This document shows, one piece after another, positions 207 to 54,457 of a stretch of 64,000 bases of DNA. Numbering within the stretch: position 1 is the stretch's first letter; the number at the start of each line of letters is the position of its first letter. This DNA is from Lepisosteus oculatus (Eukaryota; Chordata; Actinopteri; Semionotiformes; Lepisosteidae): assembly GCF_040954835.1 (NCBI RefSeq), contig NC_090703.1:16877444-16941443 (forward strand), in the 5' to 3' direction. The translations under genes were made by a program, and so were the position numbers. The notes beneath the pieces were generated by a model, which had not been told where the DNA came from, did no database searches, and saw only the letters and a program-made list of their open reading frames with translations.

Positions 207-9206
<9,000 letters not shown>

Positions 9207-15081: not shown

Positions 15082-18000
15082 ATGAAGATGGAGCCTTTTG
15101 TAGCAATCCCAAGTGATCAGTAAGTTGTGTGTTTAATCATAGTTGTAAACGTGTCTTTATTTGAACTTCTAGTTCAGAATGATGTTAAAATGTATTTATT
15201 TACAGTAGCAGTGACAAATTGGGGTGAATAAGATTCTGGTGTTGTTTGGAAGGTGAATACAATGGGCTAGGTTTACATACGGATTCAACATTCAGAAAAT
15301 TTTCATTTTGAGTGAACACCTGCCAACAAACTGAAGGCCAGAAAACTTCTCCATTTTAGGATTCTTAGAATCTTTTCTTTATTCTGATTTCTAACTTGGA
15401 ATTTTCAGTTAAGTGATTCTTTTAATCATAGTATATTATACTGAAAATATGGAAATGCATATTTACTTTTCATTGTAGCACCACAACTGTGTATTTTAAC
15501 TGCTAGAACTGTAAATGTTTGACTTTTTGCAAGGCGTGTTAGATTAATTAAAATTATCCAATTTTACAGGTCTGAACCGACTAAAACCAATAATATGCGA
15601 AGGATTTCATCGGTATGAGCCTTTAAAAAATTCTCTATGTTCCAGCTTTCATAACAGAGGTGCTTTTTAGCAATGAAAATGTGCATATTCTGTCAAATCC
15701 CCACAATAATTGATAAATCTAGATCTTTCAGAGTGCCAACTGTAGCCTTGGTGCTAACACCAGACACTATGCTTTTAATGTTAACGGCTCTACCTCTTGT
15801 ACTATTAAAGCAGTGATAACACAGTACATTTTTCATTCACGAATTTAAATTGGTTGTTCAAAACCATTAAAGATAACCCAGGCAAGGCTATGCCATCTTA
15901 AATAACTGCTGATTGTATTAGAACCATCATCATATATCTGTCTAGTTATATCTTGTCCACATTTATGATATTATATTATTTACCTTAGGCCTCTTTCTAA
16001 ACTAGTCTTTTTTACTATTATCAGAATAGTCTGATACAAACCATATAGTTTTCTCCTTTGTACTAAGTCCCATTACCTCCATACTCCATACCGCCATGTT
16101 TTTCTTCTTTTTTTTCTTTTGCATTCTATTTAAATGTACAGAAGTGCCGGGTGTCCCTAAAACATTTCCCTCAGGGGACAATAAAATCTTATCTTACATT
16201 TTAAGTGTTTTTGACTCTTTATCAAACACAGCTGTTCAGCTAGACCTTTCATTTTTGTATACAATGAGTAATTTGTACACTTTCTGAACAGAATGTGCAT
16301 TTGTTCTTACATTTGTTAAAGTACATGTGTATGTAAACTAAGAAGTCTGCTTTTTTTTTAGATTTTAAAAGCACCTCGCACCCCACTTAAAAGTATTGGG
16401 GGAGAAGATGGATGTCAGGTAATTTCAATGATACGTGATTGGGTATTTTAATTTTAAAAAGTCATCTAGTTTAGGAGCTGTTAAAAGTATTTTTAGTGTG
16501 CTCTGCTATGAAAAGCATTGCAACAGTTGAATAGTGTGGTCTAATAAAAGTAGTTTTCTCTTCCTGCTAATCTGAGATCGGTGTCAATGTTAATTCTGTA
16601 ACAACGATTGATGAAAGGTGAAGTGGGGCTTAAGCTTTTCCTTTAGTAAAGTTTGCAATTTGAGATCACCATGATTTAATTTTTTTCCCTGTTAGGACTG
16701 CACAAACAAACCATTTGAAAAGAAAAGACGAAGTTCTCGAAGAGTCAGTTTTGCCCAAACCAATAATATAAAGTAAGATTAACATATTTTCAGTTTTCTT
16801 CGCAAATGTAAAGTTGCATTCGATTGCAGTTTTTGTTATATAAAAGCTGAGTTGATAAGACAAGTTATGTCTATTCTCATTAATCATTATCTTTTCCTGC
16901 TTGGGATATCATTTGGTTCCTTGCTGTGAAGAACATATTTGGACAGAAATACTCCTGTTAATCTTTTTAAAATGTTTTTTTTCTAATATTTTAGTTAATT
17001 TAATAATTATGCTTAATTGCGTATGTATTAAGCTACATGTGTATTTACCCAATGTAAGCAGTTTCCTAAAGGTAGATAACATTAAAAAATGAATCCATAA
17101 ATGACTGTAATTGACATTTTATAAGCTGAATATTATGATCTGTATTTTTATTTTATTCTGTCCTCTTAGGGATTTTAAAAATGATTCACCTGTGACAAAA
17201 CTTTTGGGAGACCTGGATGGAACGGGTAGGTGTTTGTTTTCATTTAATATTTAATACTGATTTAGTAATATTCCCATTTCTTTTCAGGTAATAATTTTAT
17301 TTCTCCACTATTTGTCCAATTTTGCATGTAGTCATACTGGAATATTTCAATCATTTTGACTAGTTTAAGTAATAAACTGGAAATGTATTAATATTGAGAT
17401 ATTCAAAAATTGTTAATGATCTAAAACTTTCAAATGTTATATTGTTTTTGAAAAGTATACAAATTTACCCACATTCAGAATAAACAATGGAATATAGCTT
17501 AAGGCAAAACAGGTGGAAAAGCCAGCAAAATTTGTATGCATTTAATACTGTTTTGTATGTTAATGTTTCTAAATATCAGTTCTTAAAATGTCACATAAAA
17601 CATAAAAAATGTCTGACTTTTAGGTGAATGTTTATTTTTTGTAGTGATTGTTTTACCCTTAATTATTTATGCACGTCTCTGTCACTATGTTCCTGATTCA
17701 GAAAACACCAATACATAAAGTCTTATAGATAACCCTGAATTGCCTGTTTGTGAATTTTGGGAATGCTTGGTGGTTATAGACCAGTTAAGCAAGTCATATG
17801 CTCGGTTAAAGAAATTCCAGTCTTGGGGAGCTGATAGCTTTAACAAATTAGCAAAATTTTACGAATTTTACGTTTGTTATTGATCAGAGTTACAATTCTT
17901 CCATTTCTTCAGAAATTTATGATTTAAGGGTTACCTATAAAACCAGCAGGCCTAGTCAACTTTAGAAAAGGGGTTGGAGGCCCCTAATCCATGATGTTGC

Positions 18001-21000
18001 ACTTTTAATGTGAAGTAAATTTAACAATCTTGTATTAGTGCTAGATCATATAGTGTTTTTTCATGTAAGCACCATACATAGAAATGTTGGGTTAGACCAA
18101 ATTTGTTGCATTTATGAATGATCAAAGCAAAGAAAGCAGAATTCATCCGACTTACTCACTGAAGTGCAGGAGAAAGGGAAAAAAATTATATGCACATCTT
18201 TTAAAAATGAACCAGTGAGATGTCGTATGGCATTTAGTTGATATTAAAGACAAGTCACATTTTTTATTAAATTAATCTAAAAAATAAATTTGCCTTTTTA
18301 GAAATGGAAGATTTGGATAAGGAGAAGTAAGTATATTTTATTTTCCTACATGAAACTGACACCAGCTCTTTGCATGGCATTTGTTTTTTTTAATCATTTA
18401 TTGGCAAAAAGGCATACTGTGGTGCAGAAATAACATTCTATAAAGTATTATAAATAGTGTATATTAAGCCCCTAGCAGTTTTGATATACTTGCTAAAAGT
18501 TTTGGCTTGTATTTTTTATATTAAAGTAAAGCAATGTATATTAAAATCAGGGATTTTCTCTTGAATAACCTTATCAAAACCTAGTAAAATAATCAATTAA
18601 ACTCTTTTATTAGCAGGTTGAATGCTGATCAAGATGGAAAACCACAGTTACTTGGTAAGAATTTTGAAAATTTTAACTATGAATATTTTTTTTACATTTT
18701 AATTTATAATAATGTAATTGTTTCTTGCAAAGCTGGTATGAGTAGAAATTGTTTCTATTAATGGAGATAATTGAGTAATCATTTCATGTATAATTTTTCA
18801 GGCATGGAAACTTTGCTCAATGCTCCCCTACAAGTTCCACAGCAGCAGAATAAGGTTAGATATTTTGTTTCATTGTTATAAATTAAGCCAGGTAATATAT
18901 AGTACCTTTAATTGTCCCTGAAATTAGCGGGATGACCAATACAGACATTCTTCTAGTTTCATATTGGGATTTTACCTTGTTACACGAGAGCAGTGTCACT
19001 ATTCCACAGAACTGCAGCATTAGCTTTACATACAGTACATCATGAACAGTTTAATCATATAAGTTATCCAGAATCTTTAAATATCTCGCACATAGATAGA
19101 AACTATCAATTTAATATTTAAAAATAAGAAAACAAATCAAACATTTCAAAAACATTTTAATAGATGGCCTAAATGGTTATTTGAAAACATTTGTTAACAT
19201 CAACAAAAACCCCTTGGAGACAGAAAATTAGTTATAGCAGGCTTTGAATGATCGGGTTTCAGATAATACAGTAATGTCTTATTTCTTTATATAAATACTT
19301 TATTTTTTGGTTGAAAAATTCCACTTTATATTATATAAAGAATATCAATTCTAATACTATGTTAATGGAAATCGACATTATATAATTTTACTTTTTTCCA
19401 TCTCAGGAAAGGTCCTTTTTTGAGCATGGAACTATGGACACAGTTGCTGATAAAACGGTAGTATTTTCTGAAGAAGACAATGCAAATATGGATATGACCT
19501 ACAGCCACACTATTGTTATTAGTAAGGATGATGATGACATCAACGATGTTGCTAACTGTGGAAATCTAGATGTCGGAGAGTTCATTTCTAGACTGGACAA
19601 AAACAAGGACGTTGGTAATGCTGACTCAAGACGGGAATACAGCTACTTCAGCAGATGTGAAGATTCAACAATCTTTGGTAATAATTCTGTGAAGACATCT
19701 GATTTCAAAAATGGCCTTGCAAAATCAGTTGGACAGAGTGGTAACAGACGCTTTTTCAGTGATCCAAGTTCTTTAACCCCATTGGTTCAACAGAATTCTG
19801 TGCCACCTGGGCCTGAGAAAATATGTTCCAAAGATTTTCTTTCCAGACTCAAATCACATGGATCTGGTTTTGATAAAGAAAAGCAAGCATCTGTATTAAC
19901 AGAAAGGTTTGATCTCCAGTTCATCAATAAGACAATGTTAGTAGACAAAGAGGACAATATGGACATGACTAAAAGCCACACAATTTCAATAGATACCAGA
20001 ACAATAAATGAGAATAAATGTGTCATACAGCCTGCAGAACCAGATGATATGGACATGACAAAAAGCCAGACTGTTGACATTGCTTACAAGGAAGTTATGG
20101 CTTCTGATCCATTCAGAGTAATCCCTCCAAAAACTAGAAAACTTGTAGCTGGTTTAGCAGGTTGTAGCAATGAAACTGTTGTTTTTTCAGAGGAGCTTAA
20201 TGAAATGGACATGACTAAGAGCCATACAGTGGCTATTGACACTAAGAGCATTTTAAATACTGGTGAGAAACCATTGGATTTGTGTCATAATGCTCTAGGT
20301 TCTTGTGGATTGTCCTCAAGACCTGATTATAAGGACATGACAAAAAGTCAGATGAATTCACTTGATTACAAAACTAATGCAGCACTTACCAATCCAGCTA
20401 AAGACATTAACAAAAGATGTAGAAGTGTACTTGGTTTTTCTGTTCCAGCTGATAAAACAGTTCTTTTTTCTGTAGACGAAGATGATATGGACATGACTAA
20501 AAGCCATACAGTTGCTATTGACAACAGAAGTCTTTTTAGGCAGAAACGTGAACAAAATAATAAATTAGTTGACATGGAGATGACAAGAAGCCAAATGGCT
20601 GCAGTTGACTGCAGGACTATTGAAGTAACCGATCCACTCATGGCTGTGCAAACTAAACCAAGAAGTAATGCAACATCTTTTTCAGCTCCCTATGATAGAA
20701 CAGTGGTGTTTCCAGAACACTTGGCAGAAATGGAGATGACACAGAGCCACACAGTATCTATAGACAGCACAAATATCTTAATGGCTAGAGAGAAATCTGA
20801 AATGTGTTTTTCTGAAAGCCGTTTACCATGTTCCCCTTCTTTTACCTCTGTGCCAAAAGACATGGAACTTGCAAAGGGCCAGACTGTAAAAAGTGACTTT
20901 AAAACCACTCTGGCAGAAAATTCCACTTCAGCAATAAGGAGATCTAAACAAAGTATCTTTAGTTTGTCTGTTCCTGCTGATGGAACAGTTGTCTGTTCAG

Positions 21001-24000
21001 GAGAGTATGATATGGATATGACTAAAAGCCACACTGTGGCTATTGACTGCAAGAGCATTATTAGAGAAATTGATAACCCAATGCAGTCATCAAATAGCAA
21101 TGTTCCATCAACTTTGCATTCAGTAATTAGTAATGCTGATGAAATGGAATTAACAAAGAGCCAAACGGTATTTGGAATGTTTGAAAAATCTAAAAAAAAT
21201 CCGATTGGTTTGTCTATTTCTTCTGATAAAACAATTTTTTTTTCGGTGGACCAGGATGAGATGAACATGACAAAAAGCCATACTGTATCTATTGACAACA
21301 GGGGCCTTTATGAACAAAACGTGGAGCAAAATGACATGAAAATAATGAAAACCCAACCTGCTGCAGTTGACAGTAACAATATTGAAGATGATCGTTTCAT
21401 GGGAATTCATACTAAACCGAGACCTAATATGACTGTTTTTTCTGCTCTCCCTGATAAAACAGTGTTTTTTTCAGAGGGCATAGCTGAAATGGATATGACT
21501 AAAAGTCACACAGTAGCTATTGACAGATCATACATCTTACCAGCAGCAAGTGAAGCAATAGCCAGAAACAAAACAGGAATGTTATTGTCTGAAAGTATTC
21601 TACCAAGTTCCCATTTGTCCACCTCTGAAGCAGAAGATATGGAACTTACAAAGAGCCAGACTGCTAAGATTGACTTCAAAACCACTGCAGCAGACAGTTT
21701 TGTCCCGAAATGTAATATCAGATCTGGAAGAAGTGTCTTGGGTTTCCCTGTTCCTGCTGATATAACAGTTATGTTTTCAGGAGGGTGCGATGATATGGAC
21801 ATGACTAAAAGCCATACTATGGCTATTGAAACCAGCAGCCATTTTGAACAGAATGAGGAGTCAGATGATATGGAAATGACAAGAAGTCAAACTGTTGCAA
21901 TTGACTGGAAGAATATTGAAGCAGCTGATCCATTTATGGGGATCCCAGCTAAACCAAAATGTAATGCGACGTCTTTATTGGCGCCTTCTGATAGAACAGT
22001 ACTTTTTTCAGAGGACTTAGCTGAAATGGAGATAACTAAGAGCCACACAGTGGCTATCAATAGCTCAAACCTCTTACCAGAAAGTGAAAAAAGAGCGAGA
22101 GAGAAATCTGGAATGTTCTTGTCTGAAAGCATCCTACCGCATTCCCACTTTTCCACCTCTGAACCCGATGACATGGAACTTACAAAGAGCCAGACTGTTA
22201 AGATTGATTTTAAAACCACTGCAGCAGACAGTTTTGCCCCAAAATCTAACATCAGATCTAGAAGTGTCTTGGGTTTGTCTGTTCCTGCTGATAGAACAGT
22301 CGTGTTTTCAGGAGAGAATGATGATATGGAAATGACACGAAGTCAAACTGTTGCAATTGACTATAAGAATATTGAAGCAGCTGATCCATTTATGGGGATC
22401 CAAGCTAAACCAAAACGTAATACAACTTCTTTATTGGCTCCTTCTGATAGAACACTAGTTTTTTCAGAGGACTTTGCTGAAATGGAGATAACTAAGAGCC
22501 ACACAGTGGATATTGACAGCTCAAACATTTTACCAACAAATGACAAAATAGGCAGAGATGAATCTGGAATGTTCTTGTCTGTTTCTGCTGATAGAACAGT
22601 TGTTTTTTCAGGAGACTGTGACAATATGGACATGACCAAAAGCCACACAGTGGTCATAGATAAGAGAAAAGTAAAAGAGGTGGGTGAAGATTGCATGCAG
22701 TCTGTTCCAAATAGTGTCCAGCTTAATTCTGAGATGTCGGCTGCCATAAAAATTACAAGAAGCCAAACTAGTGCTGTTGACTGCAGGCCTGTTGAAGCTG
22801 ATTCATTCATTGGAATTCGACAAAGACCTAGAAAAAGTGTGACCTTTTCTTCACTTCCTACTGATAAAACTGTTGTGTTTTCAGAGGATCGGAATGAAAT
22901 GGACATGACTAAAAGCAACACAGTGGTTATTGAAAGTACTTTTTTTCAAAATAATGCAAATATGCAATATTTACTCAAAAGTGATACAGAAAAGACAAAG
23001 AACCAAACTATTGCTAATGATGTGAAAAGCAGCATTGAAATTAACCATCCGAATGCACAGGGAAATAAGAGATTTAAACAAAGTGTGCCTCGTTTGTCCG
23101 CCCCTGTGGACAAAACTACTCTGTTGACAGATGATCAAGATGAAATGGACACAACAAAAAGTCACACACTTGCTGTCGGAAGCAGTAATCTTTTAACACA
23201 AAGAGAGAAAACAACCGGTGAATTGAATAACTCCATTCTGCGAGTAGACTGTTCAGTTTTGGATCAACAAAATATGGATATAACAAGGAGCCAGACAGTT
23301 TTTATTGATTGCAGCACTAATCCAGCAGCAGGTAACAGTACGAAATCTAAGCAATATGTGGCTGCTTTATCGATATCTGAAAAAAATATTGAGTTTTCAA
23401 AACAATGTGATGATATGGATATGGCTAGAAGTCACACAGTGGCCATTGAGAGCAGGCGGCCTTTTGAGCAAGTACCCCGTTTACAATTTCAAGATGATAA
23501 ACAAATAATTGGAAACCAGACTGTTACCATTGGCCACCAAAACAGTGAGATAGTTAACCCATTAATCAAAAGTAAAAGTGCTTCAGATGAGTCAGTTCCT
23601 ATTAAAACAATTACTTTCTCAAAAGGTGAAAATATGGAAAAAACTAAAGGCCAAGAAGTGGCTATTAAAGGAAGGAGTCCTGTGCAAGGCAGTGAAAGAG
23701 ATGTAGAATCCCAGGAAATGTCAGTACAGTGTATGTCTAGAACTATCAAACCAGATATTTTTTCATCCTCTGATAAACCTGCTTTAGGTATGAGTGTATT
23801 GGTAGATGGTCTTGCAACAGAGAAAACACTCTCTGATTCACGTTTTTGTTTTGAACCTCAAAATGTAAATAAATTAGATGAAGAAAGAGGATCTGAAGAC
23901 AAGAGTAACTGTTTTGGATTAAATAATCAAGAAGTTAAAAGAGAGAGTGTTCCTTTCATAGTTTCTGACCTTAACTTAGAATCAAGAGAGCAAATGAAAA

Positions 24001-27000
24001 AGGCTGATTTAACTGAATTAACTTGTGAAATTAATAGAACAGTGGAAGAAAGTGGTGAACTATCTCTACAGAATTCAGGGGCTATTAATGAAGCTGTCAA
24101 AATGGCCAACAGAAGAAGGAGAAGTCTTGTGGATCTCCAGTCAAAACTTAAAAACATTAAAAATATGATCAACAAATCAGAAACTGGGATGACTTGCCAC
24201 ACAGCACCTTTACCTAAATTGATTAAGCTCTCAGAAACCGAAACTGAAGACAAATGTGATAAAGATTCCTTTCCCAGAAATGAATGTAACAATCCTAATG
24301 CAGCTGATTATGGAGAGGTACATTTTGCAGTATCTGAAGAGCCAAAAAATCTTCAATGCAACGACAACAGTAGTCATGTGGATCTAACCAGGAATATGAC
24401 CACACCTGTTAACTTCTGTTATGACAAGCCTCAGAAAACATCAATGTCTTTTGGTGGATTTCTACCAAAGCTCCCACAAAAAAAGAAAATTCTTAATAGT
24501 AAGACACTGAATTGTGCACAGAGCAGTCATTTTGGGAAAGTACTGATTAATGCTGTAACGTCGGACACTGCAATTCAACAAGGAAACAATGACCCTGTCC
24601 AAAATATTGATGAAGAAATTCTTCCTTACTACACTGATGAGGAGGACTCGGCTGAAAATATGAACTGCGAGTTCCCTGCAGAAAACTGCGATAAGGAAAA
24701 CCCTGTTGAAACTGTTGAGACTGATGTTGGTGTAAATGACTCAGGCTTTGATAAACCAGTACTCAACCAAACACCAAGGCAGAAAAGACCTCTCCAGGAA
24801 GATGGACATGAAGACATCATGGTGCATGACAGAAAGATCAAGAGAAGCCCCGATGTTCCTTCTGCAAATCAAGAAAAGGTGTGTTATGTTTTTTTATAAT
24901 GCTTCAGAATGTGCTTTGAAGATGCAATAAATCGATTTTTTGTTTGTTTGACTGTATAGGTTTGCTTTTTATTTAGAATTTATTATATGCTGGAAGGTAG
25001 GTTATTTAATTGATCCTGAAATTTACATCTCTACCAGGTAGAGTTCTTGTTTTCTTGTCACTACAGATTTTTATTTTCTTACTTAGGAAGCCAGAGTGTG
25101 TCGTGTCCAGTGGAGCAGTAGTGCTTTGGGCATTACAGCAGAAATCCTGCCAAGTGGGACAATGACCAAGACCTTTGACACCACTTCTGGTAGCAGCAAC
25201 AGCATGAACCTAAAAGCTGAAGCAACATTTGACTCAAGTGGTAAGCAACATTTTTTGTTATAATGTTTTACTCTAAGTTAGTGAACATGGAAAGGCTGTA
25301 ATGTTGGATTTAAGGAAAACAGAAAAAATATTAAACAATTTCTACTGAATTTGTATTTAAACGGAAGCCCTGTGTCCTTAGTGTCAAAAATGCTATATCT
25401 AACATCGTAGAAATATAAATGATAAAGTCTTTACAAAATGATCTAATTAAAATGTACTAGATTTCAAGTGATTCTAAGAATTTTGTCAATGATAAATTGA
25501 GACGAATAGGCAATAGAAAGAAAGTAGACGTAGTGCTCAGGAACTGTAAGAGCCAATACATTATTTAATGTTTTTTTTCCTGAATGATTCACAGCTCAGA
25601 GATGCAGTAGATTCGAATCCCAATTTTTGGAGGAGATAGAGGATTTACAAGAGGTAATTTTTATTGTATAGATACATTATATTTTGTTTTTTGTATAATA
25701 AAAGTTTTATACAACTATAAATTAGAAGGTACTAAACTGTATAATATATTCAGTATAAGTTTAATAAAGTAATGAAATGTTTAAATAGCTACTTTCTTTA
25801 ACTCTTAGAAATATTTATGTATCTTAAGCAGGTAGAATGTATTAATGAATAACCAAAAGTTTTATTTTTCCTGTGAGGGGAAAAATGTGAATAATCATTT
25901 AACTTTTACTTTTTTATTTTAGAAACTTCAAGATGGTAGCATTACAGCCAAAGAATTTCTCCAGCTCCTTGATGTCTATATGCATATCCAGAGACCTAGG
26001 CAGAGCACACTTCCTCACAATGTACGAATTGAAACAAGCCTGGATCTTTTGTTTTGTAGTTTCATTAAAAGCTTGTTTAGTCCTTCAGGATTCTGAAAAA
26101 TATTATAATTCTTCTTGCATCCATGCAAAGCATTGGCAAAGCATTACTGCTTTGGGGGTCCTTATTCCAAAAAGGTTATCCACTCTAGATTCAAAGATTG
26201 TATAGATTCTGTATAATGTAACTTGAATTATTATGTTAGCCTTCTCAGAACAATGTTATTTAAAATTGTACAAAGCAACAGGTTTTATATTTTTAAATGA
26301 CATTCTTGGTCGGGCAGTGGCTCTGTGGCTAAGGATCTGCGCCTGTGGCTGGAAGGTTGCCGGTTCGTATACCGCGACCGGCAGAGGAATCCTACTCCGT
26401 TGGGCCCCTGAGCAAGGCCCTTAACCCCAACTGCTTCAGGGGCGCCGTACAAATGGCTGACCCTGCGCTCAGACCCCAAGTTTCTCTCCCTGTCTGTGTC
26501 TCTCATGGAGAGCAAGTTGGGGTATGCGAAAAGACAAATTCCTAATACAAGAAATTGTATATGGCCAATAAAGTGATCTTATCATTTTACTCATCTGAAT
26601 TGCAGGTAGCATCAGATTCAGCTCCTAAGACAGAGGTCTTGCTCAAAGAAAAGTATATTTATAGACCTCAACAACAGGTTTACGAAGAGGACTGTCAAGC
26701 ATTGACAGAGACTGTGGACAAGTATGTTTATTTGACATATACTGTGTGACCTCTCATTCTTTACTGCTTTAGTAAAATGTATTCATTCATATTTTCATGT
26801 ATCAGCAAACGGATGTCAGCATTGTAATACATGTATTTACTTTGTTCATGCTTTCATTGTATAATCTTGCATTTAAAAACTTAAGAGATTTTCATTGTGT
26901 AGCATCAGTAGAAAATTGTTTGGCAAAATTGAAAACTTCTCACAAAATTAACAATGTCAGAAACTTTTAAAAATTTATTATTTAATTGTACACAAAATTA

Positions 27001-30000
27001 TTGTGACGTGTTTACAAATGACTGAATGAATGAAGGAATAAGATCTCAACCAAGAAAACATTCTGTTCTGTAATGTTTGCTCCTGTATATAGACATTGGG
27101 AAAAGAGAACCGGATTAAGTCATTTTTGATTTAAGTCTGGATTTCATATTTAAATAAAATTTACCTTTTTTTTCTTCAAGATTAAAGACCAGAATCTGTG
27201 ACCAAGAAAAAACTTTGAAGAGCATGAATGAATCTCTGTGGTTAACAGTGAAATCTTATTCAAAAGAACAGGTCTGTTACTCTCTTTAAATACATTTACA
27301 TCTCTTTAAATGTATAATTGGCTGAGTGAGAAACAGAAGGAATTATTTGAGATGTTTATCTACTTTTCTGCTATCATATTTTTTATACATATATCAAAAG
27401 TAGGAAAAAAATAATTATTCAACATTTGTCAATTATGTTTTACCAACTATTAAATATTTTTTGTATAGCCCTAAAAATCTATTGTGGTATGAATCTCTTA
27501 TGTATTAATTGCTTTTTTCAGATCTTGCTTTTACAAGTGCTGTATCACTATTAACTTATTTTTTATTCCCTTCAGTTGAGAAGTCTTGCATTCAAGCTGA
27601 ATGAGAAAAAAGTACAATTCAGGAAGAACGTTAAAGCTTATTTCCATGAAATAAAAATTGACTCGTATTCCAAGTTGGTGCAGTGTGCACAGGTGAGAGA
27701 GCAAGTGAACCTTCACACATTGTGTTTGGGATCTTATGGATGTTTATCGTAGGGTATTTTTGAGATATAGTGTTTTATAGATTGTCCAAGAGTAAAGTTC
27801 AATACACGTGCAATGATATACACCAAGTAGAAAATCTTAAACACGAAAGTAACTGCCACTGGGACTTCCCAAGCTAGAGTAGTGTGGATTTAGGGCTGTT
27901 TTGTCTGTTAATTAAAAAAAAATGTACACATGTAAAATCAATTGTGGCTGAGCAAGTTAAAATTGTGGTTTCTAATTTAGAAAAGAATCCTGTTAAATCC
28001 CATTAATCCTGTCCTCCTTTCCTTTTGTTGGCTTGTTGTATCTGATTTAGAGGTGGAGAAAGTACTGAGCAGCACATGTGCAGAATGTGCCTAACATGCA
28101 TTCCTTATTTTCCATACTGAAATACAGAATTATATCTCTGAAATTTATTGAACAGTGCTAAGATTATCATTACTGTACATATCCAGAAATAATTTCTTTC
28201 GACAGACTGCACAACAGGATTTAAAGGAAAAGATCAATTTGACTGAAGGGTTGCTGCAAAACTTAAATGAATGTTTCCATAATCTAGAAGCAGGTATGTA
28301 CAAATGTTTTGTTCAGCAAAAATTACTTAGTTATCTGCATTTCCTTTAATTTTAAACTATACACTGACACCTCGTGCTATGTTGATGATTTTAGGAGATT
28401 TAGTTAAAAGATTTGTCCACTTTGTTCTGTTGCTGAGTAGATATATTGTGTAATATAGTTGATATCTATCATTTATTATATATTAACGTTTATGTGTGTA
28501 ACTATATTTACTGGTATTATTTTGTAGAGCTTGCAGGCTTGGATTGTTCTGAAATGGAAGAAGAAAATGTGAACCCGGAATTGGAGCTTACCTTGAAGAC
28601 TAGGCAAGAAGGTAAATTACTTAGTTTGAACCCACTTACTTCCAGTACATTTAGATGAATTCCCAATTTATAGTAACCTTTTAAGTGCTTTGTTTGCATT
28701 GTTAATGTCCACTTTCTGTTGGAAATCACAACATGCACAATTTGGAATTACTTTCCTATTTTTTTTGTGATTATTGGGGAAATTAGACTGTAGGTATTTT
28801 TTACTGCTGCAAATGTATTGATATAATAAAATGAAGATGCAGATTGAGGCTTTTTCCCTTTTAGTTGTGTAGAAGGCTTAATGATAGCACAAATACTATG
28901 CCCAACCTTGCCACATGTTTGAGTTCACGTTCTACAGGAGGTAATACTTAATACTAATATTAGCAATAATAATTGATGTCCATGTTAATGTTTCATTCAA
29001 AGATAGTTTAAAATAGCCTTTCTTATTTTAATTATATAATTCAAATGTGCTTATTCAGTTTTCATTTTTTCATTTTTCTTTGGTCAATTATAGAGCTTGA
29101 AAACCTCAATGCAGAGGGTGCGGATTGTGAAAGGTAATCTGTTTAAATGTCTGATAAAATATGAAGAACCTTTTTGTCTACGTTAAACTTAATTTAAAAT
29201 TACAATAAATATTTACTTTTCATGTATTCTGTTACAATGGGAGCAATGTGAAAGTTGCATTAAATAGATTTCTCAGAGGTTTTCCCCCAAGCACTGGTTT
29301 AAATGCATTTGCTGTTGGTGACATAATTATGTCAAAAAGTGACATTAGTAACCACTTTATACTGTAAATTAAATTTACTTAGATTACTAGATTTTGTGTG
29401 CTTTTTGCATTTGTAACTATGTGCTCCTAGGCACAGAGGTAAGTGTCAATATTTATTATTGTTTTTGTTGTTGTTGATAAAGATATTACTAATTTAAAAA
29501 AAAAAACTTTTGTTCAGGAAATTGTTCAAATTGGTGACGGAAAATAAACAGCTTGAAACTGAAGTTTGCAAACTGCAGGTGAAAACACAAGAGTTGGAAC
29601 TCTACATTCAAGACCTCAACAGGTGTGGAAATTTTATTTTAATAATAAAAAGTATTTTTTTTGTAAAAGTTTTTCTTTCTTAAATCAGGAAATTAATGTA
29701 ATGAAACATTGAACCATATTTCTCTCTTTATATTTTTATTTCTAGATTATCAGAATGGACACTTACTCAGTGGCTAGATGGCCGGGCAGTCTTCACCTTT
29801 TTGAATGGATCTCTTGAACTCGAACTGGTATTTGAAGCACCACGTGGTGAGTAGCAAAAGCGTATGTATAAAATATTAACCTTAGGTTACGTGAGATACA
29901 AACAGGTTCAATGATGTAGTTTTATTTTTCTTTCCCAGATGAAACTCATTCAAGTGAAAAGGCTGTGCTAAATATTCTGGCTATAAACTTTTACACACTA

Positions 30001-31747
30001 TTGGATGGTAAGTATAACTATACCTTTGAATCTTTTGTTTCTGCTCACACAGGCTGCCTAAGTCTTTCAGTAAATACATTTTAAACCTGTTACATTAGCA
30101 TGATGTTTTTGTAATACAGAATAAATAAAATGAATTTCCAAGACCGACTCAGTTTTCATTAATGGTTATTGATGTTGATGCAAAAAATTTTTCTGATTTC
30201 CACAGATGAAAGAGCACATCCTTCCTCTCTTGTAATCCACAGTCTGATAAACCAGTTCATAAACAGTAAGGAAAGTTGGTGCAAGAAATACTCAACGCAG
30301 TATGATATTCCTAAGGTATGTACTAAACTGTTGAATTGTTGTTGATATTATATTTTGACAGCTTTTCTGCTAAATGTTGGAGATATTTGACTAAATACAG
30401 AACTTTTGTATGAAACATTTAAATGTCTCAATCATTGTTTTCATAGTATGGCATCTGAATAGAAATATGTTACTGAAATCTTTAATTCAAGTTGCTGACA
30501 AAAATGTCCTGTAAATAAGGAGTAATAAGCCAAATATTTCTGTTAGTAGTTTTTAAAATGCTACTTATTTTTTTGACAGCTCCTTCATGACTTCTCTATT
30601 GTGGTTAGTCATCTACGTCTTCTTGGACAAGAGCTCCGATACCTGAAAAAATGGGGGCCGCTCAAATTTGATATATTGGAAATGACACTTTTAGACACAC
30701 AGTGAGTTTTTATGTCTTTGGTTACTATACATAAAGGTGGTCTAGAACCATCTAATTCTAAAGATAACTGGCTGGTTTTGATTTTGACCTGTGCCTCTAA
30801 ACAAAAAATATATATGGTTGCAACTACTTATTTTTAAAATATGCATTTTAAAAGTTATTTATGGGTTTTTTTCTTTGACATTTGCTACCTAAATCGAATA
30901 TCATGGAAAATAAATTTTATATATCAACCTTAAACAATTCATCTTGTTTCCCTTTTTGTAATTTCAGTGTCAAGATTTTGTTCTCCAGTGTTAAAGGATT
31001 TGCAAAGTTTGAAATTACATTAGCTCTTACTCCAGCTTACCCATTTTCCCGTCTAGTGCTGTTGGACTTCAAAAATTACATTGGAAATTTAAGGTAAGTC
31101 AGTAAAAATTGTGTTGGGGTGCAAGTTTAAACTGATTCCTAAACAGTTTGGCTTTTACATCATTCCTTTTGCACCCAAACCCCCTCCTTTTAGTGTTTTG
31201 CATTCCAAATTTTCTTTGAAAAATGTGATGACTCCAAATACATGTCTCTAATCATTGCCTCGATTTCCAAAAAAGTAATGGTATCATCAAAAATAAGCCA
31301 TCATTTTTCTGTTTCCCTTGGAACCAATTTAGCCATTCCCCTTTTAAACCTGAACTCCACAATTTTCCATTAAAATTATTTTTACACTTTTTCATGTCTC
31401 TTGGATTGTACAAACCTACTTTTTAACAAAGTAGTATTCACAATATATCACAGTATTTATATCATCACATCAGCAGTGATACAAAACCCAATTTCTTTTA
31501 TGTGGCATCTATAATACACTGTTGAATACACTGTTTACCTTCATATAGTATCATATAAGAAAACAGTAAGGTTAATATTTTATGGTTGTTTCACATTAAC
31601 TAATTAGAATCTGAAACCTGTTTATTTCTTAGGTGGGAACAGATCGAAGAGGTACTATGTGCAGTTCAACCTGAAAACGACTACCTTACCAGGATTGTGG
31701 AAAAGATTCACCTAAACCTACTGACAAAGCCTTCTGTCCATTTTTAA
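15082..31747 (+). CDS. KNL1: Kinetochore scaffold 1 (KNL1/CASC5/Spc105)
   Basis: KNL1 is the outer-kinetochore scaffold that joins the MIS12 complex to BUB3/BUB1/BUBR1 and PP1. Twenty-five coding exons join in phase: 15082-15119, 15570-15612, 16362-16418, 16696-16772, 17170-17225, 18302-18326, 18617-18654, 18802-18854, 19407-24878, 25087-25240, 25595-25653, 25923-26021, 26606-26721, 27181-27271, 27576-27692, 28206-28293, 28528-28611, 29094-29133, 29518-29622, 29746-29846, 29939-30007, 30206-30315, 30580-30701, 30968-31093 and 31633-31747. The product is 2484 residues; human is about 2340. PP1-docking motifs SILK (27-30) and RVSF (62-65) are intact. KI-like BUB1/BUBR1 motifs are NLDVGEFISRLD (182-193) and KICSKDFLSRLK (267-278). 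The 1824-codon exon holds the MELT array. A coiled coil covers about 2070-2270. The C-terminal RWD region (about 2270-2484) matches human in segments such as LSEW and GFAKFEITL. Two in-frame ATGs (15082, 15088) could start translation. Confidence 0.95.
16140..16200 (+). mobile_element. L2-type LINE 3' end fragment
   Basis: A stretch with CATTTCCCTCAGGGGACAA followed by TAAAATCTTATCTTA resembles the 3' terminus of fish L2-type LINEs (stem plus AATAAA-like tail). Nothing upstream is recognisable. It lies in a KNL1 intron. Confidence 0.5.
19488..23672 (+). repeat. KNL1: KNL1 MELT repeat array (about 30 units)
   Basis: This coding array lies wholly inside exon 19407-24878. Units carry M-[D/E]-[M/L/I]-T followed by KSHT or [K/R]SQT and a hydrophobic-acidic end such as VAID. 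SHT-type units are usually preceded by an aromatic TVVF/TVLF motif 8-12 residues upstream. SQT-type units lack it and are followed by motifs such as DFKTT or KNIEAADPFMGI. SHT and SQT units alternate along the array. The last units (for example GENMEKTKGQ) are degenerate. In known KNL1, MPS1-phosphorylated MELT threonines bind BUB3-BUB1, and the SHT segment contributes to that binding. Confidence 0.92.
26308..26583 (+). mobile_element. tRNA-derived SINE, copy B
   Basis: The head GGGCAGTGGCTCTGTGGC is tRNA-like and a B-box-like GGTTCGTATACC follows. The central GAGCAAGGCCCTTAACCCC block and the tail with GCCAATAAAGTGATCTTAT follow in order. It is the opposite-strand sibling of 774-1046. It ends about 20 bp before the acceptor of the KNL1 exon at 26606. 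Confidence 0.88.
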
Positions 31748-34887: not shown

Positions 34888-35881
34888 GTGAGTTTGTCAA
34901 TAACATTGCAGATCAGAGAAACAAAAAAAAGTTTGTGTTTAATGATTTCAAAGTGACATTCAAGTCACGGTATTATTCCCGAGGAATTACATTAGAAGCG
35001 CGTTGAAGATAGATTTAACATTCTTTTAAGTTGTCCAAAGGAGACAAAGGTACTGTACTATTCCTCAACACACGTCCAGGTTACATAACATTGTGTTGTT
35101 CCTTAATGTTTTTTTCAGAAGATTTACTGCAAACAGAGGGCTTGGAAGCTAAACTGGACCGTTATTAGTGATTTTCTTACCTGTTCTTCACTTAATAGCA
35201 TATAGGCCAATTTGGTTAGATTGACCATATTTAGATAGTGTAAGCGAACATTTGAAAATCTAGTTTCAATCTATGGCTTCATAATATGCAATACGTGTAT
35301 ATATCGGCTTACGTGACTTTAGTGTTTTTGTGATACGCCTTATAGTATTCCCTTCAGAACAGGGCCTCTGACTATTTGATCTAATCCTACAAAGGCGAGG
35401 TCTGTACTGAAATGCTAAATGCCACCGCTCACTCTACACTGTAGACTCGGTAGTGTGAACTCCTTCAGCTTCTGCATTTCTTCAGTGTTTGGCAAAAAGA
35501 CAACTGTCACGAGTTATGAATTAAGCGCATTTAAGCAACCTTGTGCATGTTTTATGCAGTTTGTTGGAACAGAAATTGTACGCCTGTTTATAAGTGTACC
35601 ACATTTGACCACATTGGTCAAAATATACTTTATTTTATATTAGCAGCCTTATATTTTAGTGGTCATTTTACTTGGCAATATGTACAGAATATCCTTATTC
35701 TGTGAGGTTTGATTGGAAGTCTAATAGTAGAAGTAGCATGGATGGTGATTTTACAAACGCTTTGTTTTGTTTTTTAACTTAGGCCTACTATAAAATGATC
35801 ACAAGTTAGCTTCTGCTAAGGGAAATTTGCCTTTAATATCAAACCCTCCCTGAATAAAACTAAGTTCATTTTTGAGCCCAT

Positions 35882-36140
35882 TTAATTCAGCCCAGATCTG
35901 GAGTGCTATCTGTGTGGAATTTGTATGTTCTTGCTGTGTTTGTGTGAGTTTCCTCTGGGTGCTCTGGCTTCTAGGAAAGTCAGTCCTTGGTGTGGATGTG
36001 TGCGTGTTTGTGTCTGCCTGGCGATGGACGGGCGTCCTGTCCAAGGTGTACCCTGCTTATTGCCTGCTGCTTTCAGAGATAAGCTCCGGCTCTCCCTCGA
36101 CCCTGCATTGGAAGAAATGGTCAGAAAATGGATGGGTAAT
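35882..36140 (+). mobile_element. SINE with L2-like tail next to RAD51 exon 2
   Basis: The block GTGCTATCTGTGTGGAA, then GCGATGGACGGGCGTCCTG, and a tail AAAATGGATGG identify the family. It lacks most of the tRNA-like head. It ends about 75 bp before the acceptor of the first coding exon of RAD51. Confidence 0.8.

Positions 36141-36216: not shown

Positions 36217-54457
<18,241 letters not shown>

Follow-up and report, generated by a model that had tools for sequence, protein, structure and literature searches.

A nested array of alternating MELT units in a predicted KNL1 exon of Lepisosteus oculatus

In the higher-order repeats of centromeric satellites, monomer classes standing in a fixed order form a block, and the block is then copied. 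Here we analyse an array of MELT-like units in 64,000 nucleotides of the Lepisosteus oculatus genome (contig NC_090703.1, positions 16,877,444 to 16,941,443 of the forward strand; this whole stretch is hereafter called the window, and positions are counted from its first letter). Unlike the satellites, this array lies in frame in a protein-coding exon, to all appearances one of KNL1, and has six diverged turns only. The phrase 'higher order multiplication' is said to stand in the abstract of the 2015 paper by Tromer, Snel and Kops in Genome Biol Evol. KNL1 arrays are rebuilt by duplication and loss, with motifs that change fast (Tromer, Snel and Kops 2015, as cited in PMC7292645; all sources with PMC numbers are quoted here from excerpts). 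In human KNL1, 10 of the 19 MELT motifs have a TxxAromatic motif, on which BUB1 recruitment critically depends, and SHT is required in the most active sites (PMC7614552). The array described here resembles the human one in that TxxAromatic-MELT-SHT modules are mixed with modules lacking the aromatic motif. It resembles budding yeast Spc105 in that sites of differing affinity would share one scaffold, a mixture of strong and weak MELT sites that has been argued to reconcile a strong checkpoint with its prompt shut-off (PMC7292645). Spc105 differs in having six motifs, and the excerpt of that source describes neither a repeat block nor a regular alternation.

The window contains 30 MELT-like cores at 19488-23657 (28 recovered with a loose pattern, and two degenerate ones, 22986 and 23499, by eye). 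They form a nested array, in which H and Q units make a pair and two such pairs make a block, H-Q-H-Q. Core type was defined by the residue preceding the last threonine, which gave 15 H cores (14 SHT and one SNT) and 15 Q cores (eight SQT and seven variants, namely SQM, GQT, TQP, NQT and GQE). An earlier reading made from the letters alone (hereafter the sequence-only reading) had worded the flanks of its classes as SHT or SQT, which is exact for 14 of the 15 H units and for just eight of the 15 Q units. From 19959 on, the two types alternate at 25 of the 28 steps among 29 cores (P=3e-5, 200,000 shuffles). The exon and the successive parts of the array, where a and c denote H units and b and d denote Q units of the block, are as follows.

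19386..24899, + strand: large KNL1 exon (predicted), an open frame of 1837 codons, terminal stop included
19488..19511, + strand: first core, MDMTYSHT, type H, with TVVF upstream
19905..20150, + strand: leading H-Q pair, cores 19959 and 20049, class uncertain
20151..20675, + strand: turn 1, complete by position, with a 20205, b 20331, c 20487 and d 20574; its a-b linker is unrecognisable as AB
20676..21434, + strand: turn 2, with a 20730, b 20862, c 21012, an extra Q 21144 and H 21261, and d 21336
21435..21971, + strand: turn 3, clean in cores and linkers, with a 21489, b 21639, c 21795 and d 21870; 179 residues to the next a
21972..22427, + strand: turn 4, with a 22026, b 22173, and c and d fused to one unit (core 22326)
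22428..22844, + strand: turn 5, with a 22482, b lost, c 22626 and d 22746
22845..23657, + strand: degenerate tail, with H 22899 (SNT), Q 22986, H 23145, Q 23274, H 23415, Q 23499 and Q 23634; turn 6 is degenerate

The order of the four classes was read from the 29 linkers, which were compared without their cores because circularity with the cores was to be avoided (local alignment against 100 shuffles). Linker classes AB, BC, CD and DA were set by reading the score matrix, not automatically. Eighteen linkers could be classed (six DA; five BC; four AB, plus one hybrid; and three CD, plus weak ones), and 11 (linkers 0, 1, 3, 9, 10, 20, 21, 23, 26, 27 and 28) were left out as hybrid, weak or unlike, so that the proposal that every MELT can be assigned to one of four classes by its flanks holds for 18 of the 29 linkers and fails for the rest. 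Counted between successive classed linkers, with the dropped ones skipped over, the a-b-c-d cycle was followed in 12 of 17 steps (permutation mean 6.5 with the H/Q slots fixed; P=0.0028). The recurrence of this order along the exon, also proposed in the sequence-only reading, is thus upheld as a tendency; it is clean only in turn 3, while the other turns are partial or edited (one of the six is clean, one is complete by position and four are edited). The period of roughly 180 residues claimed for the best part agrees with the 179 residues that we measured from core 21489 to core 22026.

Trees of individual units, built from 28 of the 30 cores (19488 and 23634 left out) with 42-residue windows that overlap between neighbours at the short c-d linkers, point the same way. 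H units part from Q units at 99/100 in the DNA tree and group at 95/93 in the protein tree. In the DNA tree, four of the six a units group at 99/94 and all six at 51/86, while three of the five b units (20862, 21639 and 22173) group at 99/99; class c forms no clade in the unit trees (five changes for five rows) and is what remains. Taken over all groups, the labels require 11 changes against 19.2 when shuffled, and none of 200 shuffles was as low. Neighbouring units do not cluster among these 28 units; a tree in which they did so irrespective of class was the outcome named beforehand as speaking against the block, and that outcome did not occur. Trees of 13 linkers (12 Q-to-H linkers and the one leading into the fusion) place the DA and BC positions on opposite sides (DNA, 71/79 and 50/52; protein, 69/86 and 58/73), a split matched by shuffled labels in 0 and 2 of 500 trials for DNA and in 0 and 3 of 500 for protein. 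The silent choice of glutamine codon also follows class, with CAG in four of five b units and CAA in all four d units. As in a higher-order repeat, the classes stand in fixed order and units are closer across blocks than to their neighbours, the support for BC versus DA being weak. It has to be asked whether MELT units were instead duplicated singly, the four classes having converged through position-dependent selection. Single units or pairs were indeed gained or lost in turns 2, 4 and 5; however, the classes are visible in linkers stripped of their cores, in silent glutamine codons and in DNA trees, and neighbours do not cluster. Single-unit duplication with convergence is therefore disfavoured, and we hold it to be very improbable.

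Traces of recombination are preserved at two in-frame fusions. Their positions are given below with those of the youngest copied tract.

22320..22330, + strand: c/d fusion point, 11 bp (GATGATATGGA) common to both parents, c-like before and d-like after
22575..22581, + strand: a-to-c linker fusion point, 7 bp (TTGTCTG) common to a-b and b-c linkers
21627..22061, + strand: youngest copied tract, first copy (b-c-d-a core), residues 747 to 891
22161..22517, + strand: youngest copied tract, second copy (b, c/d fusion, a core), residues 925 to 1043

Unit 22326 belongs to class c upstream and to class d from its core on. The linker 22482-22626 is a-b-like up to the shared 7 bp and b-c-like beyond, with unit b missing and the frame kept. 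Edits of single units or pairs amount to one extra pair, one lost b and the one c/d fusion. Silent divergence (Nei-Gojobori, NG86) is 0.13-0.20 between the youngest copies and 0.41-0.78 for most other same-class pairs, reaches 1.26 between the first a-b pair and that of the third turn, and is 1.7 and 2.0 between a-b and c-d pairs; this gradation suggests that the pair arose first and the block later. Counted per 12 codons, the two copies of the youngest tract are 0.86-0.97 identical, except at the fusion with 0.75; identity is 0.58-0.83 in the windows that precede the tract and 0.75 in what follows. The flanking a-b linkers are 0.75-0.81 identical on both sides, and a comparison picked after the pattern had been seen (234/261 in the tract versus 140/183 in the a-b linkers) gives a Fisher P=3e-4. 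Since all four linkers should be young after a crossing-over that added a whole period, and the a-b linkers are older, gene conversion between neighbouring blocks, rather than a block-adding crossing-over, is an equally good account of this last event, and for that step we give it nearly an even chance. It is compatible with block growth overall, the a-b linker may simply change faster, the stretches compared are short, and the number of blocks itself still requires additions. The evidence supports an array that grew largely by the copying of four-unit blocks through recombination and was edited later. The growth by unequal crossing-over of a four-unit block that had been put forward is accordingly borne out for the block, by the trees, the glutamine codons and the roughly b-c-d-a tract; crossing-over is not separated from conversion by these data, and single units and pairs were gained and lost as well. 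On the whole, the earlier observation was confirmed in part and its interpretation supported in part.

By homology the exon is identified as part of vertebrate KNL1 and as its BUB-recruiting array. It carries the array of M-[ED]-x-T motifs that marks a KNL1/Spc105 scaffold, the Pfam family PF19221 (MELT) matching 22 stretches of it (549 bits, E=1.3e-170), and human KNL1 (sequence from PDB 8ppr chain K) is matched at E=4.6e-21 by a single-sequence phmmer search and at E=5.2e-63 with a profile built from H-Q pairs. A 179-residue query run against the window's own genome (1.2 Gb, 813 contigs) gave ten matches among the best candidates scored, all within the exon. The pair profile (13 of 15 pairs, two fused ones being left out) matches nine stretches of human KNL1, the best of which, 884-956, spans an H unit, a linker and a second core. 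Profiles were also made for H units (14 of 15, without 19488) and Q units (13 of 15, without 22326 and 23634). The Q profile finds its best human fit in the unit at 936 (14.5 bits). That unit scores still better against the H profile (22.0) and bears SHT and its own TILY; descent of the Q type from a middle unit of this human kind is a lead only. Read from the listed stretches, the human protein shows a three-unit block twice (from 884/929/964 and from 1094/1139/1176, with a period of about 210), in contrast to the two H-Q pairs of the block in this exon. Block copying is thus not peculiar to the gene studied here. SQT is absent from the 14 human cores examined, out of a human total of 19 (PMC7614552).

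The two types of unit differ in their docking motifs. TxxF/Y/W occurs within 16 residues before the core in 11 of the 15 H units and in two of the 15 Q units, which are the fusion 22326 and the last, aberrant core 23634 (TITF); with the latter left out, the contrast is 11/15 against 1/14 (P=0.0005). The statement that half of the units lack the upstream aromatic motif roughly holds (17 of 30). TxxAromatic, MELT and SHT, which together make up the vertebrate BUB-recruiting module, are combined in 10 of the 15 H units, and we do not file Q units as full modules because SHT is found in none of them (by definition of the type) and TxxAromatic in 2/15 only. Selection has acted unequally on the two types. 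Over the eight core codons, the pooled ratio of nonsynonymous to silent differences per site (pN/pS) is 0.12 in 15 H units and 0.35 in 14 Q units (23634 left out), with a similar pS (0.70 and 0.66). Since silent sites are near saturation, these ratios are approximate and are probably overestimates, to a like degree for H and Q. The twelve codons after the core give 0.73 (H) and 0.81 (Q). In bootstraps over units, the Q core ratio exceeded that of H in 500 of 500 replicates, and two reduced sets each gave 499 of 500; restriction to the block region (nine H, nine Q) gives 0.09 against 0.30, the difference being positive in 499 of 500. The pattern [MILV][EDN]xT is retained in 14 of the 15 H cores and in eight of the 14 Q cores (P=0.035). 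H cores are under the stronger purifying selection, and Q cores are neither free nor as tightly held.

These data bear on whether the alternation is merely a trace of copying, the Q units being decaying leftovers that are carried in the block and do little or nothing. In favour of such decay, Q cores have lost [MILV][EDN]xT more often, a human stretch aligned with a Q core (EEITKSRNE) lacks the usual motif, and the middle of the Q-to-H linkers holds no third conserved island (pN/pS 0.6-1.2 in 11 linkers). However, Q cores evolve more slowly than their own flanks (0.35 versus 0.81, lower in 500 of 500 bootstraps), and the newest Q pairs (21639 with 22173, and 21870 with 22326) show no amino-acid difference in the core. 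We consider decay a minority possibility, with something over one chance in five in its favour. Two grades of BUB3 site, strong ones with weaker ones between them, are the likely reading when the constraint is taken together with the aromatic and SHT mark of active human sites (PMC7614552) and the strong and weak sites of yeast (PMC7292645).

Spacing is unequally regular. From a Q core to the next H core it is 50-53 residues in 10 of 12 cases (39 and 47 in the other two), whereas from H to Q it is bimodal, with 25-30 residues in six cases and 40-50 in seven (spread compared by Levene's test, P=0.002). The near-constant Q-to-H spacing occurs in two linker classes of unlike sequence (19959-23657). 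The alternation itself may have been selected, as two interleaved registers with a Q-to-H distance of about 52 residues in both linker classes; we regard this as unlikely, and in the 11 linkers compared no linker motif accounts for the spacing. Were it so, each weak site, standing at a fixed distance before a strong one, would set the speed at which the checkpoint fades.

The glutamine of the Q units also invites the suggestion that they bind a partner other than BUB3, as a phosphosite of the ATM/ATR type (S-Q) or as an anchor for the dynein light chain LC8. Of the 15 S/TQ pairs in the exon, 11 sit at the SQT place of Q cores, and SQT is similar to TQT, the anchor found in LC8 partners (PMC3078936, PMC6607443). 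Nevertheless, 15 pairs compare with 13.3 expected from composition, which indicates no clustering other than that due to common descent of the Q cores. Under the LC8 rules, large hydrophobic residues are unfavourable at -4 and hydrophobic residues at +2 (PMC6607443), yet M, L or I occupies -4 in 13 of the 15 Q units and V, A or I occupies +2 in 13 of the 15. By those position rules around the anchor glutamine, as excerpted, the 15 Q units do not form an LC8 (DYNLL) anchor array, and a different partner seems to us distinctly improbable.

We therefore favour, with fair confidence, a BUB-recruiting array built from pair to block to copied blocks, in which strong and weak sites alternate. Its ancestor would have been a pair of units, an H unit with aromatic TxxF, a MELT core and SHT, followed by a Q unit in which a MELT core and SQT stood without the aromatic motif. 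This pair would have doubled to H-Q-H-Q (a-b-c-d), and in-frame recombination of misaligned copies would then have multiplied and homogenised the block along the exon, with fusion or loss of some units. Phosphorylation of the cores by MPS1 in mitosis would be followed by binding of BUB3-BUB1, the H units presumably serving as strong sites and the Q units as weaker ones in alternation along the scaffold. Several points weigh against this account. Tree support for BC and DA is weak (13 linkers), blind average-linkage clustering recovers AB and CD as groups while BC and DA fall together, and plain lag tests within linker types are not significant (two-dimer lag of HQ linkers, P=0.06; QH, P=0.56), which we attribute to register shifts. 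Four H units (19959, 21012, 23145 and 23415) have no aromatic motif, and one Q unit beyond the fusion carries it (23634, TITF). Core ratios for b and d (0.48 and 0.41) rest on just four and five units, silent sites are near saturation for the old pairs, and the orthologue comparison, made with human KNL1 only, dates neither the Q type nor the block. Our confidence was slightly lowered by the unrecognisable a-b linker of turn 1 and by that further Q core with an aromatic motif.

Further candidate parts of the gene lie around the exon on the same strand.

16741..16752, + strand: RVSF (RRVSF) motif, candidate PP1-docking site in a candidate KNL1 exon, upstream of the large exon
29705..30342, + strand: two open-frame pieces (29705 and 30163) resembling the KNL1 C-terminal RWD domain, PF18210

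KNL1/Spc105 scaffolds dock PP1 by an RVSF motif near the N terminus, and the RVSF here may do so. PF18210 matches two of the nine open-frame pieces 3' of the exon (2.6e-5 and 8.4e-5, profile positions 52-84 and 98-136), each under the curated whole-domain cut-off; the other seven pieces gave no PF18210 match, one having an unrelated weak match. The KNL1 gene looks intact here. Two KI-like stretches lie between the first core and the array, one at 19563-19610, which was aligned with the human KI region in the KNL1 match, and a second at 19821-19868, noted by eye. Farther 3', an open-frame piece at 36952-37383 contains a helix-hairpin-helix domain (PF14520, 9e-8); it reads like RAD51, which adjoins KNL1 in human too. 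Open frames at 773-1045 (+) and 26288-26578 (-) have near-alike translations in opposite orientation and are probably copies of a dispersed repeat. Those at 35802-36056 (-) and 39222-39611 (-), which flank the RAD51-like piece, share similar stretches (in the first, GYTLDRTPVHRQ) and probably represent another dispersed repeat; a further open frame lies at 47863-48090.

The process of repeat growth is itself known, and KNL1 is a protein whose array is known to be rebuilt; the new element is the turn-taking of SHT and SQT units with graded constraint, which we did not find in print in a thin literature search. Nature has supplied a ready-made test peptide in the c/d fusion, where an SQT unit acquired the aromatic motif. 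Why KNL1 has a surplus of MELT sites over those used is an open question (PMC5192424, PMC7292645). Here complete and reduced sites alternate in one exon, with like silent divergence and a roughly threefold gap in core constraint, which makes the array a natural test of whether weak sites serve a purpose.

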